Below, piece by piece: positions 35,188-59,994 of a DNA stretch of 64,000 nucleotides (its first letter is position 1; each line of letters starts with the position of its first letter). Source of the stretch: Psychromonas ossibalaenae ATCC BAA-1528. GTDB lineage: Bacteria > Pseudomonadota > Gammaproteobacteria > Enterobacterales > Psychromonadaceae. The position numbers and the translations under genes are program-made. The notes below the pieces were generated by a model. That model was not told the origin of the DNA. It saw nothing but the letters and a program-made list of their open reading frames with translations, and did no database searches. The stretch spans positions 1 to 64,000 of the forward strand of contig NZ_KB906989.1 of the NCBI RefSeq assembly GCF_000381745.1, written 5' to 3'.

Positions 35188-35542
35188 GGGGATGATTTAG
35201 GACTCGACGAGATTCTTGAAACCCAAGGTGCATGCCGAGGTGACGGCTGGCCTCGTAAAAAGCCGTCAAAGTTATAGTTGCAAACGACGATAACTACGCT
35301 CTAGCAGCTTAGGCTAGCTAGCCTTCCACCCACGTTTCTCCTATGGGCAGGGATTCGGAAGGTCATTCACATTTGGATAGCGAGGGAACCTTGTTCGAGG
35401 GTGAACCGCGAAATAGTATCGGACTCGCTCTTTGCAATCCTGTCTGTCGGAGTGTCGAGAGTTAACTAAAAGATAGACTAAGCATGTAGTACCGAGGACG
35501 TAGGTTTTTCGGACGGGGGTTCGACTCCCCCCATCTCCACCA
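35188..35542 (+). ncRNA. ssrA: tmRNA (10Sa RNA)
   Basis: 355 nt with encoded CCA. The 5' end GGGGATG pairs with CATCTCC (35532-35538) to form the acceptor stem, with a G-T pair at position 3 and ACCA at the end. Conserved ACTCGACGAGATTCTTGAAA near the 5' end, and the 3' T-arm and acceptor region TTCGGACGGGGGTTCGACTC, match tmRNA. The tag frame at 35280-35312 encodes ANDDNYALAA and then TAG, beginning with the resume codon GCA. The 3' end coincides with the left edge of the prophage, so this is probably the bacterial attachment site. Confidence 0.95.
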
Positions 35543-35547
35543 CCTAC

Positions 35548-35585
35548 AAGGCCCTGTAATCAATAGGTTACAGGGCCTTTTTCGT
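35548..35585 (+). terminator. tmRNA terminator
   Basis: AAGGCCCTGTAA (35548-35559) pairs with TTACAGGGCCTT (35568-35579) and runs into a T-stretch. It starts 5 bases after the tmRNA CCA. Whether this DNA is chromosomal or brought by the phage depends on where the attachment core ends. Confidence 0.8.
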
Positions 35586-35618
35586 TTTAGTGACCACATT
35601 CTGTCCACCCTCAAAATT

Positions 35619-35816
35619 TTAAGTCACTTTATAACTCCCCGCAGAACTTCCAGAAGTAACCGGCACTTGTGCATTTCCTGTTATTTCATCAACAACTGCA
35701 TTAGCAATAGCTTCAGCAAATTTACTCGCCATCGCAAATTCACCATCAAGTACAAAGCCCTGGGCTTTTAACTCTGTTTCTAATTTTTCTTTTAATGAAG
35801 ATTTACTGAGCGCCAT
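35619..35816 (-). CDS. small phage protein at the distal end of the tail operon
   Basis: 65 residues from ATG 35816 with AGGGAAA upstream; the longer frame to 35912 overlaps the hub gene. The sequence begins MALSKSSLKEKLETELKAQG, contains FAEAIANAVVDEITGNAQVPV and ends in a Gly/Ser-rich tail. It follows the hub/spike gene directly and is the last gene before the tmRNA. Small proteins of this kind sit next to VgrG-like hubs in related prophages, but their function is not known to me. Confidence 0.65.
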   Translation of the reverse strand: MALSKSSLKEKLETELKAQGFVLDGEFAMASKFAEAIANAVVDEITGNAQVPVTSGSSAGSYKVT

Positions 35817-35817
35817 T

Positions 35818-37428
35818 TTATTTCCCTGAAAAAACGGTGGTTGATACATCCACATGTGGGCTACCTGTAAACGGACAAATAGTTGCCCCAGTACAGATAC
35901 CTGCCCCGCCATTTAATTTTATAGTTGCAGCGTCCTGGGTGATGTTTGCCGCAGTGATGCTTAAATCTTTTTCTATTGTTTGAATTTTATTACCCATCAC
36001 TTTTAATTTGTCGTCCAGGGTAACCACCACATTACGTAGTTTTCCAATGGTTGTGATGAGCTCTCCGGCAGTCGCCACCTGCATATTACCCAGTGAGCCG
36101 AGTGTTAAATCATCACCGGCTAATAAATCGATTGCACCCAGGGCTTCAATGACCTTTTGCCCGATAATCTCTTCAATACTGTGCTGACTAATAGTGAGAG
36201 TGTGTTTACCGAACTTACCCTGGTATTCATCGGCTTGGTGATGTTGTTTAAATGCTTGTTGGTTTTGGTGCTGGTCGGTTTGCTCGGTTGTATTACCTGC
36301 TGCGTCTGTCTTTTTACTGACTTCATTTCGCTGCTGTTGTAACTGTTCGCCTGGCTGTATATCTGGTAACGCGTAATCTCGGCCATAAACACCACGGATA
36401 ATAGGTAAATCGTTCCGGCCATAAGCAAAGGCGATTTCAACAATGGTCCCTTCAAGTGGATAAGCCAGTAAACCTGACTCGTGGCCAGACATATGCACCG
36501 GCATCGGAATTGATTTATAAACAGGTACATTTAAATCTGCCTGCAGGGACTCGGTCAGCAGTTGAATATCGATTGCATAACGCGGACGGAATGGATCGGC
36601 TATTTGTCCTGCGCTGGCATTATCTCGCACCGCTTCAACGCGCCCAAACTTAGGCAAATGGTTTTGCGTGGCAAGCTCCGGAAAGTGTTTTAGTATCTCA
36701 CGCTTTTTAGCCGGCACACTATTGGTTTGAGGTTCCCAGTAGGCGGTCATCTCATCGCCGATTAAATCTAACCGGGTAAGGCGTTTTTCAGTTAACTTTT
36801 CATCTTTGATTAAAGCGCCCGGTCGAAGCATTGGAAATGGAGCAAAAGTCATATTATCGCCGTTGGCCCTTGATGATAAATCCAGCGGCACGGTGACCGG
36901 CTTGCCATAGAACCGGCAGTCCTGGTAAGCACTGATATGCACGTTTTGGTCAGTATGTTGAAACCAGACTAAATCAGGCACCTTAAAAGCACGACCGATT
37001 TGCTGCAGACACTGGTATCCAGTTCCCTGGCTGACAAAGTTCGGGATTTGTTTATCGGTGTAATCCACTTCTTCCGGCAAGATAAACTGCAGTCCTGTTT
37101 TTTCGCCCAGTGCCGTTAATACTTCCCGCATAGTGGGGTGTTCAATACTCAGTGGCCAGCGGTTACTTAAAATGCCCACATTTTCTTTTACTGTGATTTT
37201 ATAGTGCCCGTTCTCTGCAGGTTGGACTTTTTCAATATACCCTTCAAGAAATGGCTTTAAGTTACTTTCATAACCGATATCAAAACGCACGGCCTGATGG
37301 GGTTCAGGTATAAATGTATCGGCAAGGGTAAAAATCGCCACACTGCCCAGGGATAATTTCAGACTGACCATGTGCGAGGCTAATGTTATTTCCTCACCGG
37401 CGATATAAAGACGTTTTTCTAATTTCAT
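35818..37428 (-). CDS. VgrG-like fused baseplate hub and spike protein
   Basis: 536 residues. Residues 1 to about 320 resemble the gpD/gp27-type hub: an N-terminal beta-barrel, then HPTMREVLTALGEKTGLQFIL and a second barrel. This leads into a gp5-like OB domain (GTIVEIAFAYGRNDLPIIRGVYG), a Gln-rich linker and a needle-like stretch (about 420-510). The last 25 residues, CTGATICPFTGSPHVDVSTT and following, look like a PAAR-type sharpened tip. P2 makes hub (D) and spike (V) as separate proteins, whereas here one chain appears to carry hub, spike and tip. The start overlaps the preceding gene by ATGA. Confidence 0.75.
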   Translation of the reverse strand: MKLEKRLYIAGEEITLASHMVSLKLSLGSVAIFTLADTFIPEPHQAVRFDIGYESNLKPFLEGYIEKVQPAENGHYKITVKENVGILSNRWPLSIEHPTMREVLTALGEKTGLQFILPEEVDYTDKQIPNFVSQGTGYQCLQQIGRAFKVPDLVWFQHTDQNVHISAYQDCRFYGKPVTVPLDLSSRANGDNMTFAPFPMLRPGALIKDEKLTEKRLTRLDLIGDEMTAYWEPQTNSVPAKKREILKHFPELATQNHLPKFGRVEAVRDNASAGQIADPFRPRYAIDIQLLTESLQADLNVPVYKSIPMPVHMSGHESGLLAYPLEGTIVEIAFAYGRNDLPIIRGVYGRDYALPDIQPGEQLQQQRNEVSKKTDAAGNTTEQTDQHQNQQAFKQHHQADEYQGKFGKHTLTISQHSIEEIIGQKVIEALGAIDLLAGDDLTLGSLGNMQVATAGELITTIGKLRNVVVTLDDKLKVMGNKIQTIEKDLSITAANITQDAATIKLNGGAGICTGATICPFTGSPHVDVSTTVFSGK

Positions 37429-46251: not shown

Positions 46252-46436
46252 TTTTTAAATAATTTTCCTATGGCATTAGCGACGGCTATTTCTTGGCGTT
46301 TATAAAGGTGTGTGTCTAACCACATGGCGCGAGCAAGGTTTTGCGGCTGGTCATCCTCATTGGGCAGAAGATGACGACGCAGGGTGAGAGCTTGTTCATA
46401 AGGGTTTTTATCAATTCGCCCCACCCGCTCGGTTAG
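46248..46436 (-). CDS. -1 frameshift extension of the tail assembly chaperone (E' part)
   Basis: An open frame without its own start, 62 codons, beginning at the slippery site and encoding LTERVGRIDKNPYEQALTLR and onward to AIGKLFKK. It is read only if ribosomes slip back one base on A-AAA-AAC (46442-46436, minus strand) just before the stop of the gene at 46433-46714. The fused product would be about 155 residues. Its TGA overlaps the tape-measure ATG. This is the E/E' (G/GT-like) arrangement of tailed phages. Confidence 0.85.
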   Translation of the reverse strand, partial: LTERVGRIDKNPYEQALTLRRHLLPNEDDQPQNLARAMWLDTHLYKRQEIAVANAIGKLFKK

Positions 46437-46714
46437 TTTTTTAAGCTAACCTTAATACCGCCCTTAGCACCTTTGTTAACTTCCATGAACAGCTCCATGA
46501 TTAATCCAGGTACCGTGTCTAATAGTTCAATTAACGTGTCTTTCTGCAAACTGTCGACCGTACGCGTTAAGAAGGTATACGCCGGGGCGACTTTGTTATC
46601 CGGCATGAGCTCATTGGTGTAGTTGTTATGGTCAGTTACGGTAGGCGTGAAGTTAAGCTCAGTACTGCCGACTCTGACGACGATAATTTTTTTTGCTGTA
46701 TTTACTGGTTTCAT
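46433..46714 (-). CDS. tail assembly chaperone (gpE-like)
   Basis: 93 residues. It lies directly before the tape-measure gene, as P2 E does, and its last codons TTA-AAA-AAC-TAA contain the frameshift heptamer. The sequence FTPTVTDHNNYTNELMPDNK and TLIELLDTVPGLIMELFMEV resembles HP1-type chaperones. It should coat the tape measure during tail assembly. The inverted repeat GGTTAG...CTAACC (46450-46431) surrounds the slippery site. Confidence 0.82.
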   Translation of the reverse strand: MKPVNTAKKIIVVRVGSTELNFTPTVTDHNNYTNELMPDNKVAPAYTFLTRTVDSLQKDTLIELLDTVPGLIMELFMEVNKGAKGGIKVSLKN

Positions 46715-46950
46715 GCGTTCTCTCTTCTGTTTAATGTTTCATAAATTCGGTTAAATCCCGTTTCCATCTGACGCTCTAGGCGCTCTGCATGGTCTTTGAA
46801 CTCATCTTTCGTCACGTAGCTTTCTGCTACATGTGTTTTAAACTCAGATATTTCTTTGTTTAATGAAAAAAACTTAGCAATTAATGTGGTCATCAATACC
46901 GTGACAAACATCGCCACAGCGATAAATGCTTTGATTACCGTCGGATCCAT
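46711..46950 (-). CDS. small membrane protein with coiled coil, lysis region
   Basis: 79 residues from ATG 46950 (ATGA overlap with the upstream gene, AGGAGA upstream). One N-terminal membrane segment (VIKAFIAVAMFVTVLMTTLIAKFF) precedes a charged coiled coil (FKDHAERLERQMETGFNRIYETL). The topology fits an inner-membrane spanin-like or holin-accessory protein, but no lipoprotein partner is seen. Its function is inferred from place only. Confidence 0.6.
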   Translation of the reverse strand: MDPTVIKAFIAVAMFVTVLMTTLIAKFFSLNKEISEFKTHVAESYVTKDEFKDHAERLERQMETGFNRIYETLNRRENA

Positions 46951-47195
46951 CACGTCTCCTTTTGTGGCTGGGTTAAAGGCACTTCTTTTAGCCGTTTTCC
47001 CTGCAGTGATAAAACGATGTCGTCTACAGTTCCCTGCACAACATCATTGGAAGATAAGCTTTTTAAGGTTTCTAGCCCCCCAATAATCAGGCGGGTAACA
47101 AAGCGTTCAGCCATCACATTCCACGCCATTTTAAACAGCATTCCCTGCAGAATTTCCCAGATTGTTTTACCTAAAATAGAGATTAAAAAATGCAT
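46950..47195 (-). CDS. small hydrophobic/amphipathic phage protein, holin candidate
   Basis: 81 residues. It begins MHFLISILGKTIWEILQGML and is hydrophobic or amphipathic over its first 40 residues, then polar (SNDVVQGTVDDIVLSLQG). Adjacent to the DUF5675 gene and the membrane coiled-coil gene, it is a candidate holin or lysis accessory. It does not match a holin family that I can name. Confidence 0.5.
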   Translation of the reverse strand: MHFLISILGKTIWEILQGMLFKMAWNVMAERFVTRLIIGGLETLKSLSSNDVVQGTVDDIVLSLQGKRLKEVPLTQPQKET

Positions 47196-47207
47196 ATTGA
47201 CTCCTTA

Positions 47208-47630
47208 CTAATCTTTGATAATGGTTAATTGCGCAGGCAAGCCGCCAAGCTCATTCATGAGCACATCAAAAGCATCGCCTGAATGCGTCACACACCATTC
47301 ATCATCCAAAAATCCAAAATCAAGCCCCGGTGACAGACAACCAAGCAACTCTGAGGGTTTATTGGCCGGGTGAATCAGGCAGGCAGTACGCAGACTTGGT
47401 CCGTCAATCGTCACGCCTAATGTAGCGGCAACCAGCGCATAACAGTCGCCATACTTAGGGCTGTTATGCGGCACGATTAAATAACTTCCCTCCGGTACAC
47501 AGGATTTAAAGGGCTCGTTATTACGCCATTCTCGCTCAACCATGCGACAGACTTTGCTGCTGTCTGCGCGGTGCATCGTTGAGTAAGTCCCGTGCTCAAA
47601 GTAACGCCGTTTTAAAATAAAATGTTTCAT
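47208..47630 (-). CDS. DUF5675-family protein in the lysis position
   Basis: 140 residues from ATG 47630 (ATGA overlap); a TTG at 47633 is less likely. Key segments are FKSCVPEGSYLIVPHNSPKYGDCYAL and ACLIHPANKPSELLGCLSPG, the DUF5675 pattern with a His, a Cys and glycines arranged like the H...GC motif of L,D-transpeptidases. No lysozyme or other endolysin is visible in the tail/lysis block, so this protein may act on peptidoglycan. That is inference from position and motif shape. Confidence 0.7.
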   Translation of the reverse strand: MKHFILKRRYFEHGTYSTMHRADSSKVCRMVEREWRNNEPFKSCVPEGSYLIVPHNSPKYGDCYALVAATLGVTIDGPSLRTACLIHPANKPSELLGCLSPGLDFGFLDDEWCVTHSGDAFDVLMNELGGLPAQLTIIKD

Positions 47631-47839
47631 CAAATCCCCTGCTCGGACAGCGACTGACAGCTAACACATAACTGACAACCTGGTACTGCAAACCGGCGGG
47701 CTGCCGGGATAGCTTCATCGCACAAAGTGCAGTTGTGTGCACTGGTAATAAATGTGTTTTTACTGCTCTGTTGATGACGATTAATGAGCCTTTGTGTCTG
47801 GGCCATTTCATGCTCACTGGCGCGGTCTAAATCATCCAT
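47630..47839 (-). CDS. TraR/DksA-type C4 zinc-finger protein
   Basis: 69 residues. The motif CTLCDEAIPAARRFAVPGCQLCVSCQ (C-x2-C-x17-C-x2-C type) is the TraR/DksA zinc finger. TraR-like proteins enter the RNA polymerase secondary channel and mimic DksA with ppGpp. In P2-group phages one such gene is common between tube and lysis genes. It is coupled to the downstream DUF5675 gene. Confidence 0.82.
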   Translation of the reverse strand: MDDLDRASEHEMAQTQRLINRHQQSSKNTFITSAHNCTLCDEAIPAARRFAVPGCQLCVSCQSLSEQGI

Positions 47840-47841
47840 AT

Positions 47842-48294
47842 TTAAAAGAGGCCCCGCGTATCATTTTCACTCAAATAGGGAATACCGTTAATACTGACAA
47901 AATGCGGACTGGTGACAAAGCCTTTGAGTTTACGGGTGGTTTTATCCGCGCTTTCAGGATCAACACTGATTAAATCTGAGATAACCAGTTTCACGCCGTA
48001 CAGCTCAACCTTGTCTTCATCGCTGCCGTTGTTTGCATAGAACTGGCAGTCATGCGGGGCAATTTCCCGCCAGCTTCCTGCCTCGCGGGCCTTTTGCTGG
48101 AGCTTACGAAAGTTGTTTAAATCCAGCTCATATTCTGTTTCACACTGGGCGCTGCCGTCGGTGTAACCATCTGTTACCCCGCGAGTCAGTGCCACGGCCG
48201 ATTCATCACTAATGGTGGCCGTCGCCGACTTCACATGCACCATGACGCCAAGAATCGTGACGTCAAAATTACGACCGGTAAATCTCGCAGTCAT
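47842..48294 (-). CDS. tail tube protein, DUF2597 type
   Basis: 150 residues. FTGRNFDVTILGVMVHVKSATATISDESAVALTRGVTDGYTDGSAQCETEYELD matches the HP1-type DUF2597 tube proteins rather than P2 FII. It lies directly after the sheath gene, as expected. It polymerises into the inner tube of the contractile tail. Confidence 0.83.
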   Translation of the reverse strand: MTARFTGRNFDVTILGVMVHVKSATATISDESAVALTRGVTDGYTDGSAQCETEYELDLNNFRKLQQKAREAGSWREIAPHDCQFYANNGSDEDKVELYGVKLVISDLISVDPESADKTTRKLKGFVTSPHFVSINGIPYLSENDTRGLF

Positions 48295-58001: not shown

Positions 58002-58625
58002 TTATCGCGCTATACCCCAAATTTGTCCTTGAGGTGTTTGGCAAAAACACTGCGAGCCTTTTGATATTTGATTAAAAAGCTGACAAGGACCGTAATTCGT
58101 GGCGCAGAAAGTGGCGGGAAGAAATGGAGTAAAATCAAAATTCACCTTTCCGCATCTCGCTATTGTTTGAGCTCTTTCTAATCCTGAAGGGTAATTACCT
58201 TGCATATAAAGCCCCTGACTTGCAAACTGGCGAATTGTCCTGTCGAGATCGGCATAGTTCTTACTGCGACTCAACGCACGTGCTGCCCAGCAGTCAGACT
58301 GTAGCTCTTGATCCCTAGTGGCCCAGAACTGTGTTTTTCTAAACCACATTCCTTGAGGGGTAACATGACCATTCATGTGATGTCCACACTCATGCGCTAA
58401 AGTAAACACTCTAGACATACTCCAGTTACCTAAAACACTTGGATCTGCATATATAACCGGCCCTATCTGGTCAATTGACGCAGAAGCTCCTTGAGGATTA
58501 CTTACAGAAATAACCCTAATACCACAAAATTGATCCCAACCAGAAAACATAGCAACTTGGGAGTTGGCTGTTGATGCAAAGAAACATGCCAATAGAAAAA
58601 TAAATATAAAACTTCGAGCTTTCAT
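58002..58625 (-). CDS. secreted zinc metallopeptidase-like protein (phage cargo)
   Basis: 207 residues. A clear Sec signal (MKARSFIFIFLLACFFASTA, likely cleavage near ANS-Q) precedes a short gluzincin-like core: LAHECGHHMNGH gives His78, Glu79 and His82, and DQELQSDCWAARAL gives the third ligand candidate Glu107. This spacing recalls the neutral zinc peptidase family of YpfJ. The C-terminal part has six cysteines, likely disulfide-bonded. It lies in the cargo site between Ogr and replication genes and has no role in the phage particle that I can see. It may be a periplasmic or exported effector or a lysogenic-conversion factor. Confidence 0.7.
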   Translation of the reverse strand: MKARSFIFIFLLACFFASTANSQVAMFSGWDQFCGIRVISVSNPQGASASIDQIGPVIYADPSVLGNWSMSRVFTLAHECGHHMNGHVTPQGMWFRKTQFWATRDQELQSDCWAARALSRSKNYADLDRTIRQFASQGLYMQGNYPSGLERAQTIARCGKVNFDFTPFLPATFCATNYGPCQLFNQISKGSQCFCQTPQGQIWGIAR

Positions 58626-58653
58626 TTTTATACCTCTATCTTATAAAGTTAAA

Positions 58654-59469
58654 TTAGCTACCACAGTTTGCAGTGGCTCCAATCAGGAATTTTGACTGAG
58701 CAACCAACTGATTCTTAACTGGACTATTAGGGATTTGGGGTAATAGTAGCCTTACAGCATCAATTTTTTCTTTGGCTGCTTTACAATCTCCAAAGCCTAC
58801 CTCCACCTGAGCCCACTGAAGATATGTGTTGGCGTTTGTCACTAATTTTTTAAATTCAATTTCTCCAGAAAATTTTGGGCCTAAATAAATATTGGCAGCT
58901 TCACCCATCATTTTTCTCGTTTCAATGACGTTTCCCTTTATCATATATATCCCTGCAACAGCCCTAAGCGATCCGGCGGCAATAGTGGAGTCCGTTGCTC
59001 TGGAATAACTCAAAAGATATGCCTCAAGTGCCTCGTCATACATATATGAACTGCTCAGTGCTTGGCCTATAGCCATATACTCAACATCCAAAACAGTATT
59101 TTTTCCAAATAAGCTACTTTCTAGTCTATTAATTACAGCGAGGGCCTGCTGGGATAAAATGGAGTTTTTGGTATTGTATTGAGCGGAAAGGGCTGAAATA
59201 GTATTAGAATCATTTGCATATTTTTTTGTGATTTCTGCGAAATCTTCATTCATTTTTACTATTTCGCTAATAATAGTTCTTAGCTCTATTCGTGACGCCA
59301 AATAGTCATCATGAGAACCTTTTATGTAAGACGTTAATGAAGTAAATACTGTAAAGACAAGTGCTACTAAGGGAATTAATATTGATACATTTCGATACCA
59401 TAAAAGCTTTTCTTTTTTTTGAGTACTATCTGTTTCTGCTATTGTTGTAATATTATCTTCCATTTTCAT
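58654..59469 (-). CDS. membrane-anchored helical (TPR-like) protein (phage cargo)
   Basis: 271 residues. A cytoplasmic N-terminus of about 25 residues, one membrane segment (VSILIPLVALVFTVFTSLTSY), then a long helical periplasmic part. Residues of the second half look like TPR helices (EYMAIGQALSSSYMYDEALEAYLLSYSRA, TYLQWAQVEVGFGDCKAAKEKIDAV). No enzyme motif is seen. It is followed 28 bp later by the metallopeptidase gene on the same strand, so the two probably form one operon. I do not recognise the family. Confidence 0.65.
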   Translation of the reverse strand: MKMEDNITTIAETDSTQKKEKLLWYRNVSILIPLVALVFTVFTSLTSYIKGSHDDYLASRIELRTIISEIVKMNEDFAEITKKYANDSNTISALSAQYNTKNSILSQQALAVINRLESSLFGKNTVLDVEYMAIGQALSSSYMYDEALEAYLLSYSRATDSTIAAGSLRAVAGIYMIKGNVIETRKMMGEAANIYLGPKFSGEIEFKKLVTNANTYLQWAQVEVGFGDCKAAKEKIDAVRLLLPQIPNSPVKNQLVAQSKFLIGATANCGS

Positions 59470-59781: not shown

Positions 59782-59994
59782 TTAGTAAACAGTTATGTAC
59801 TCCCCATCAAGCCCTTCCGTACCAATATTCAAACACCGTTCAACCTCTTCGGCCCCAATCTTAGAGAGGTTTTTATCAACAATTCGGCCCCCAACCTTCA
59901 ACACTTCATCGACAGTTAACGGCTTTGTTTCAAGATTAGGGATCCATACAACTATTAAAAGTTGTTTTGCTACCTTAATTTTTTTAACTCGCAT
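59782..59994 (-). CDS. small phage protein after the replication gene
   Basis: 70 residues, beginning MRVKKIKVAKQLLIVVWIPN. It is a mixed alpha/beta sequence with an acidic C-terminal half (KIGAEEVERCLNIGTEGLDGEY). It starts 3 bp after the stop of the upstream small gene on the same strand. No motif is recognised. It is probably a phage accessory gene at the end of the early operon. Confidence 0.5.
   Translation of the reverse strand: MRVKKIKVAKQLLIVVWIPNLETKPLTVDEVLKVGGRIVDKNLSKIGAEEVERCLNIGTEGLDGEYITVY

Follow-up and report, generated by a model that had tools for sequence, protein, structure and literature searches.

In a prophage of Psychromonas ossibalaenae ATCC BAA-1528, a protein of the Pfam family DUF5675 is most probably the endolysin, with a predicted L,D-transpeptidase-like fold. 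The stretch analyzed here, referred to as the window, covers bases 1-64000 of contig C23 (75,005 bases; genome 5.2 Mb), and it carries an HP1/K139-type, P2-related prophage that extends past its end. The assignment draws on the position of the gene, its exchange with known endolysins among relatives, searches that found no other endolysin, the predicted fold and a set of invariant residues. Our confidence applies to an endolysin of this fold, not to the particular bond that it cuts. The first-pass annotation had placed a TraR-type finger, a DUF5675 protein, an 81-aa protein and a membrane coiled-coil protein between the tube and chaperone genes, and all four open reading frames (ORFs) are indeed there on the minus strand. 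The cassette, its boundaries and the proposed active-site stretch are:

47842..48294, minus strand: tail tube (HP1 Orf24, DUF2597); PF10772 (Phage_HP1_Orf24) 1.1e-48; upstream boundary of the slot
47630..47839, minus strand: TraR/DksA-type C4 zinc-finger protein; PF01258 1.6e-9, TIGR02419 5e-18
47208..47630, minus strand: DUF5675 protein, 140 aa, proposed endolysin of L,D-transpeptidase-like fold; PF18925 9.9e-19, phrog_1501 2.9e-33
47337..47390, minus strand: proposed active-site stretch, with R81 (47388-47390), H87 (47370-47372) and C98 (47337-47339)
46950..47195, minus strand: 81-aa protein, candidate holin; phrog_21044 6.8e-36
46711..46953, minus strand: 80-aa protein with one transmembrane (TM) segment and a coiled coil; phrog_7885 3.3e-26
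46433..46714, minus strand: tail assembly chaperone (HP1 orf26 type); PF10963 (Phage_TAC_10) 6.1e-15; downstream boundary of the slot

The tube-to-chaperone slot is a lysis cassette in related phages. In HP1, K139, phiO18P, ValB1MD-2, SI7, phi3 and 1.202.O, an annotated endolysin or lysozyme follows the same tube gene and precedes the chaperone or next tail gene, and a holin or spanin is also annotated in all of these except ValB1MD-2. We drew 115 tube loci from viral contigs, genome contigs and annotated phages; 108 of them also had a chaperone gene (the other 7, with none within the fetched DNA, were dropped), and these reduced to 84 distinct slot sequences, some contigs having been fetched twice. 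GH24 enzymes occupy 33 slots, DUF5675 18, a lambda-R-like group 17, CHAP 8, M15_4 3, M15_3 2 and an SLT-like enzyme 1, which leaves 2 with none. Exactly one of the six other endolysin classes is present in 64 of the 84 slots, and two classes never occur together. The counts come from sequence clusters with one locus corrected and were reproduced exactly by tblastn with single representatives. Class labels are those of Pfam, apart from the lambda-R-like group, which takes its label from the endolysin annotation of phiO18P and resembles lambda R. Locus L059 was rejected as a DUF5675 slot, which brings the count from 19 to 18: a long ORF start overlapping TraR had merged clusters, and the locus holds the SLT-like enzyme, itself weakly labelled (E 0.035 by hmmscan; 7.4e-4 and below cut-off in its genome). 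Fisher tests give 2e-16 for the mutual exclusion and 1e-14 for the spanin distribution described below, but the slot rows are related, so we rely instead on the tree and on swaps between near relatives. By its exclusive exchange with known endolysins, in 18 of the 84 slots and in these swaps, DUF5675 is a member of the lysis cassette.

Empty slots, with neither an enzyme nor TraR, occur in Vibrio sp. and V. ruber (L012/L019/L093 and L013/L018/L092), and the phages concerned must keep their lysis genes elsewhere or be defective. Separately, a DNA methyltransferase gene lies within the slot at L055, L115, L116, L121 and L135; in phiO18P (L055) it stands between the holin and the lysozyme.

A sheath-plus-tube tree covering 81 of the 84 slots requires 8 changes of the DUF5675 label, at least 5 of them forced by strongly supported branches; this is a quick tree, in which some long branches may be misplaced (L058 with the L052 group, L053, L057, L110). 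The exchange can be followed at the nucleotide level. Loci L081 and L083 share 96.6% identity across 5,631 bp upstream, as far as the 3' end of TraR, and 95.6% across 3,483 bp downstream, where the match resumes near the start of the chaperone gene; between those edges, L081 has a holin-GH24-Rz block and L083 has DUF5675 and two small genes. The breakpoints of the pairwise comparisons place the left edge of the exchanged block at the 3' end of TraR. Five of six further comparisons show similarly sharp swaps, with clean edges at 78-90% identity: L068/L070 (89.6%, 88.8%), L086/L085 (86.9%; 85.6% and 88.3%), 1.202.O against both L052 and L061 (82%; 79-81%), and yong1 against L061 (80%; 78%). The sixth pair, L029/L017, is too distant to show edges: its identity is scattered (65-69%) and clean breakpoints are missing. 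That DUF5675 sits in the place of an endolysin, as the first-pass annotation proposed, is thus borne out by its exchange with known endolysins at the same position.

The same annotation held that the prophage has no classical endolysin, and our searches of the prophage by Pfam, PHROGs and tblastn all agree, returning neither a lysozyme nor an amidase. No known endolysin was found in a Pfam scan of 39 ORFs or in a PHROGs scan of 19 (most of them among the 39); these profile scans covered all but some small ORFs, such as 35619-35912 (97 aa) and 59782-59994 (70 aa). Six-frame tblastn of the whole prophage with 82 endolysin queries (81 from slot relatives, plus Mu gp22) also found none, where positive controls were found for the GH24, lambda-R-like, CHAP, M15_3 and M15_4 queries and the SLT-like query had no control. 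Genome-wide, there is no match to PF00959 (Phage_lysozyme).

DUF5675 records at large were screened for known endolysin families as well. PF00959, PF01510, PF08291, PF01464 and PF05257 each matched in 0 of 23 DUF5675 records, some of which may be fragments; in eight control phages PF00959 matched three, PF08291 one, PF05257 one and PF01464 one (below cut-off), and PF01510 gave a control signal only in the named control genomes. PF00959 was likewise absent from 11 further, more distant DUF5675 phages, and PF13539 from 25 records, 14 of them shared with the 23. The scan with PF00182 (GH19) was silent in its control too, so that DUF5675 records may yet hold a GH19 enzyme. For the lambda-R-like class, which has no Pfam match, the screen was by tblastn and covered the window's prophage, where no member was found, a stretch of contig C29 and 11 DUF5675 loci. 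Six DUF5675 phage records have gene tables that were wholly or mostly inspected, and an endolysin is named in none of them; if DUF5675 is the endolysin, this would be explained.

The window protein belongs to DUF5675 with 67.7 bits against a gathering cut-off of 26.7 (residues 7-129 on profile positions 2-112 of 114). Its start is likely the ATG at 47630 rather than the TTG at 47633, which is also possible. A sister copy on contig C29 is 91% identical. Two scans for relatives gave 276 and at least 530 confirmed stretches, with possible overlap, and 80 loci were kept from each; the resulting alignment has 157 rows and 156 unique proteins, the window protein having entered twice (once as L014). 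Although identity to the window protein falls to about 25%, N38, S43, Y50, R81, H87, G97 and C98 are identical in all 157 rows, and an arginine stands six residues before the histidine in every one. This invariance is partly by construction, because S43 and Y50 belonged to one search pattern and H87 to the other; R81, G97 and C98 were in neither. The retention of R81, H87 and C98 among proteins so divergent argues for catalysis. The motif quoted in the first-pass annotation, IHPANKPSELLGC, is present in the protein and includes H87 and C98. No hydrophobic segment of TM strength occurs in the protein (maximum Kyte-Doolittle mean 1.03), and a holin would therefore be needed.

An AlphaFold model of the window protein has a predicted local distance difference test score (pLDDT) of 95.2 and a predicted template modelling score (pTM) of 0.89; for a distant family member (L281) the values are 90.8 and 0.82. 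We re-scored Foldseek's list against the PDB with VIA. For the window model, the top 15 rows are all LD-transpeptidases, LD-carboxypeptidases, DpaA or Tlde1a (Z 5.6-9.9; next row 2.7), and for the L281 model the top 12 rows are likewise all of these kinds (Z 8.0-11.0; next row 2.4). Both models thus have a predicted L,D-transpeptidase-like fold, with its beta-sandwich catalytic domain. In the window model H87 and C98 lie at strand ends (strands 84-86 and 99-102), as this fold would predict. A viral structure library holds a structural match in phage cr116_1, named 'L,D-carboxypeptidase/transpeptidase', and no publication on that match came to light. A single-protein sequence search of solved structures gave no match at E up to 10, and a profile search gave nine, all factor X light chains at E of at least 0.64, which we take as chance.

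The first-pass annotation had likened the DUF5675 motif to the His...Gly-Cys motif of L,D-transpeptidases, and the predicted fold of two models, together with the retained His and Gly-Cys, agrees with that comparison. The likeness does not extend to the full YkuD motif, given in a passage of an LD-transpeptidase review as HG(S/T)-X10-(S/T)XGC-hydrophobic-R. The distance from His to Cys is 11 residues in 133 rows and 19 in 24, against 16 in the YkuD motif, and a serine or threonine precedes the cysteine by three residues in 31 of 157 rows.

The genes of the 81-aa and GTA_holin_3TM-like types behave as partners of the enzyme: across the swaps they stay while the enzyme class changes. The 81-aa protein is probably the holin of the window cassette. 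Its gene is where the first-pass annotation put it; the description as hydrophobic has to be softened, since the maximum 19-residue Kyte-Doolittle mean is a moderate 1.40, against 2.24 for the 80-aa protein. It has no Pfam match. Proteins of its type occur in 7 of the 18 DUF5675 slots (the window's included), and the other 11 have a GTA_holin_3TM-like type, for which PF11351 matched the members at L017 (2.3e-13) and L067 (1.7e-12) and not that at L052. Each type also accompanies a different enzyme: an 81-aa homologue adjoins an SLT-like enzyme in phage yong1, and the GTA_holin_3TM-like protein pairs with M15_3 (L029, L108) as well as with DUF5675. Look-alikes of the 80-aa protein, which we propose as an accessory lysis protein, occur in both types of DUF5675 cassette, and it has a weak PHROG spanin match (E 0.02).

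Outside HP1-type phages, DUF5675 recurs in a comparable setting. In two Mu-like phages, martha 12B12 and ZX4290, it comes after the late transcriptional activator (separated from it by one ORF in martha) and is itself followed by a zinc-finger protein, DUF2730 and the small terminase; the order at that place in Mu is C, gp22 endolysin, gp23 spanin, gp24, DUF2730, gp26 and terminase. A protein with a TM helix comes directly after DUF5675 in 1.206.O, 137E35-1 and phage Virtus. Neighbors were counted at the loci of 134 of the 156 unique proteins. The next gene encodes a TM protein shorter than 250 aa at 82 of 126 DUF5675 loci, compared with 147 of 1,336 background genes, and a small TM gene is found at +1 or +2 in all 47 HP1-type loci and in 58 of 87 others. 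With redundancy reduced the signal is weaker (16 of 22 clusters at -1, +1 or +2; 12 of 22 at +1 or +2). DUF5675 is found in 67 annotated phage records, among them Vibrio, Alteromonas, Rheinheimera, Cellulophaga, Salinibacter and Pseudomonas phages.

Several observations weigh against an endolysin of L,D-transpeptidase-like fold. Concerning the fold, Foldseek alone gave no PDB match for DUF5675 (best E 0.24, unrelated), and by the note that accompanies VIA a Z below 8 may reflect merely a common arrangement, which for the window model applies to 9 of its 15 rows and for L281 to none of the 12, all at 8.0 or above. Membership in YkuD was not found, there being no PF03734 match to DUF5675 at E up to 1, and hhalign of DUF5675 against 12 YkuD rows gives a probability of 18.7% (E 0.0013, 18 columns; control 0.2%). 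The arginine two residues after the cysteine, present in 10 of the 12 YkuD rows, is found in 0 of 157 DUF5675 rows. A shared fold also proves no function, and Tlde1a, according to a passage of its description, swaps D-amino acids as well as cutting. In terms of context, 29 of the 87 loci outside the HP1 type lack a small TM gene in the next two positions (+1 or +2). In Pseudomonas phage pf16 (L042), DUF5675 directly follows a hub/tail lysozyme gene among baseplate genes, so some family members may be virion proteins; that phage is annotated with a tail lysozyme, yet it has no PF00959 match.

The spanins form a further difficulty. Rz/Rz1-like genes, by cluster labels that we assigned from sequence and annotation, are present in 0 of 18 DUF5675 slots as against 60 of 64 slots with another enzyme. 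They are also absent from the two M15_3 slots and the SLT slot, and present in 60 of the 61 GH24, lambda-R-like, CHAP and M15_4 slots. Because M15_3 and SLT slots lack them as well, the absence is a trait of the cassette type and does not prove that the enzyme is special; the presence of spanins seems to be linked to the type of holin. One enzyme acting both as endolysin and as partial spanin would explain DUF5675 cassettes without Rz/Rz1. DUF5675 might in that case cut at the meso-diaminopimelate (meso-DAP) L-centre with a loose choice of leaving group, opening both cross-links and, as DpaA does, lipoprotein-peptidoglycan tethers, and so partly replace the spanins; we consider this unlikely.

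We propose the following model for the cassette. DUF5675 would be made in the cytoplasm, having no hydrophobic signal segment, and a holin, probably the 81-aa protein aided by the 80-aa TM-coil protein, would pass it through the inner membrane. Once in the periplasm, it would work as a cysteine peptidase with the L,D-transpeptidase-like fold: His87 would activate Cys98 for attack on the carbonyl of the meso-DAP residue that holds position 3 in a stem peptide. Water, not a second stem, would resolve the acyl-enzyme, so that cross-links are opened rather than made. Since lysis demands hydrolysis of cross-links, a cut at the meso-DAP(3) carbonyl within a cross-link is the simplest reading; we put the odds that the bond cut is meso-DAP(3)-D-Ala or another one at that L-centre at about even. 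From the parts of the literature consulted, known enzymes of the fold perform transfer, exchange and hydrolysis at meso-DAP(3), and LD-carboxypeptidase and Lpp-releasing activities are reported. A passage of a review credits LD-endopeptidase activity to two C. difficile enzymes and not to other YkuD-type enzymes; the proposed bond therefore has little precedent, which also counts against our model.

Because the fold also includes transpeptidases and exchange enzymes, and two cassette genes have no known function, DUF5675 might instead alter the wall without lysis, by D-amino acid exchange or by 3-3 cross-links directed against superinfection, with an unrecognized cassette gene such as that of the 81-aa protein as the endolysin. 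We regard this as quite unlikely. Either DUF5675 or one other endolysin class, and never both, is present in 82 of the 84 slots; the 81-aa protein has a homologue beside an SLT-like enzyme and is replaced by the GTA_holin_3TM-like protein in sister cassettes, and thus behaves as a partner; and the arginine two after the cysteine, found in most YkuD rows, is absent throughout the DUF5675 alignment. A virion-associated hydrolase used for DNA entry, with lysis left to something else, is very unlikely. It would fit the pf16 gene, which lies between annotated hub/tail lysozyme and baseplate wedge genes, and the presence of DUF5675 within very large phage proteins, for example in Ralstonia phage RP31, as the viral structure library also records. 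Here, however, DUF5675 stands in the lysis slot and is exchanged with holin-GH24-Rz blocks, its place in the Mu context is a lysis position too, and DUF5675 is most often a stand-alone gene (about 140 aa) with a small TM gene after it.

Small phages can also lyse their hosts through a wall-synthesis inhibitor or a membrane disruptor. A cassette without Rz/Rz1 might work in this way, with DUF5675 no longer an enzyme, but Cys98, His87 and Arg81 would then hardly persist in all 157 rows, where identity to the window protein drops to about 25%, and we give this explanation scarcely any weight. An endolysin of L,D-transpeptidase-like fold is the reading that we prefer. If it is correct, it supplies a function for a Pfam 'unknown' found across hundreds of viral contigs, and the cysteine L,D-peptidase fold joins the chemistries known from this slot, which are glycosidases and M15 and CHAP peptidases or amidases. 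The near-isogenic swaps open the endolysin claim to a direct complementation test.

The left end of the prophage is at the tmRNA gene, and its integrase lies beyond the window:

35188..35542, plus strand: tmRNA gene ssrA (ARAGORN), at the left end of the prophage
C23:73000-73992, beyond the window: tyrosine integrase

The sequence from 35543 onward is repeated at 74119 of C23, adjoining the integrase; this puts the prophage at about 35,543 to 74,119 of C23, integrated at ssrA and running past the window. Its recognized genes (Pfam, PHROGs) include capsid, scaffold, terminase, portal, gpA, sheath, tube, baseplate and repressor. The repeat of 35543-35912 at C23 74119-74488 includes the 97-aa ORF, and a tandem second prophage may follow at the contig end, where the ORF after the repeat appears PAAR-like. 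Within the prophage, 58002-58625 (minus strand) encodes a protein with a hydrophobic N-terminus and a HECGHH zinc-protease motif (phrog_87 metallo-protease, 5.9e-8); beside it, near an Ogr-type gene of the prophage, 58654-59469 (minus strand) encodes a protein with a TM-like segment, and the locus 58002-59469 is probably a moron. Past the window, between repressor and integrase, C23 65909-72782 (L008:2909-9782) holds an HNH protein, a 210-aa protein without a Pfam match, a 758-aa protein with two HATPase domains, an N6 methylase-like protein, a GNAT-like protein (below cut-off) and DUF4760; the block looks like a defence or moron island.

Published mentions of DUF5675, in the passages at hand, give it no function, and in the parts of the literature searched, which took in YkuD and transpeptidases in phage lysis, we found none that links DUF5675 to lysis. 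In similar extracts, a gut-phage survey mentions a GH25-YkuD protein and a virome paper has YkuD among endolysin domains, while a mycobacteriophage review offered nothing relevant. The first-pass annotation had thought a new type of wall enzyme possible. The family would be new in this role, not having been recognized so far; calling the enzyme type new needs care, since the PhaLP database, in the passage seen, already lists YkuD as a phage lytic domain with 10 proteins. PF18925 does not appear in that passage, and the sequence distance between DUF5675 and PF03734 is large.

Bacterial L,D-carboxypeptidases are among the solved structures that match DUF5675 best. The nearest is Pgp2 (Z 9.9, root-mean-square deviation [rmsd] 3.2, 116 residues aligned for the window model; 11.0, 3.0 and 117 for the L281 model), and Bd1075 (Z 8.4, rmsd 3.2, 108 aligned) and Csd6 (Z 8.3, rmsd 3.5, 116 aligned) are similar. 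All three are L,D-carboxypeptidases, longer than DUF5675 at about 270-320 residues and with additional parts, and identity is 9-10% (21-22% for Pgp2 against the L281 model). Tlde1a, an antibacterial effector of the type VI secretion system, is small and has the same fold (Z 8.4, rmsd 3.1, 108 aligned). Its published residues, R115, H121 and C131 in the passage seen, match R81, H87 and C98 by spacing alone: Arg and His are six apart in both, and His and Cys are 10 apart in Tlde1a and 11 in DUF5675. It differs in its delivery machine and in having disulfides and a capping subdomain. DpaA (LdtF) scores Z 7.8 (rmsd 3.1, 111 aligned) with the window model and 8.3 (3.7, 122) with the L281 model. A passage of a review describes it as a YkuD-type amidase that releases Lpp, a hydrolase rather than a transpeptidase, without a conserved transpeptidase Arg. 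It is cellular and cuts a protein tether, and the arginine that it has lost is not necessarily the residue lost in DUF5675.

At the level of gene order, DUF5675 in Mu-like Vibrio phages lies between the late activator and DUF2730/TerS, as does Mu gp22. No sequence relation between the two was seen: tblastn with gp22 finds nothing in 11 DUF5675 loci. The closest known system is the HP1/K139 cassette of holin, GH24 endolysin and Rz/Rz1, which has the same genome place and flanks as the cassette described here; K139 also has TraR on the left. The DUF5675 cassette differs in enzyme fold, in holin candidate and in having no recognizable Rz/Rz1, and between near relatives it and cassettes of the HP1/K139 type interchange. 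We read it as an ordinary holin-endolysin arrangement, whose enzyme has a fold rarely listed for phages and belongs to a family unrecognized until now.

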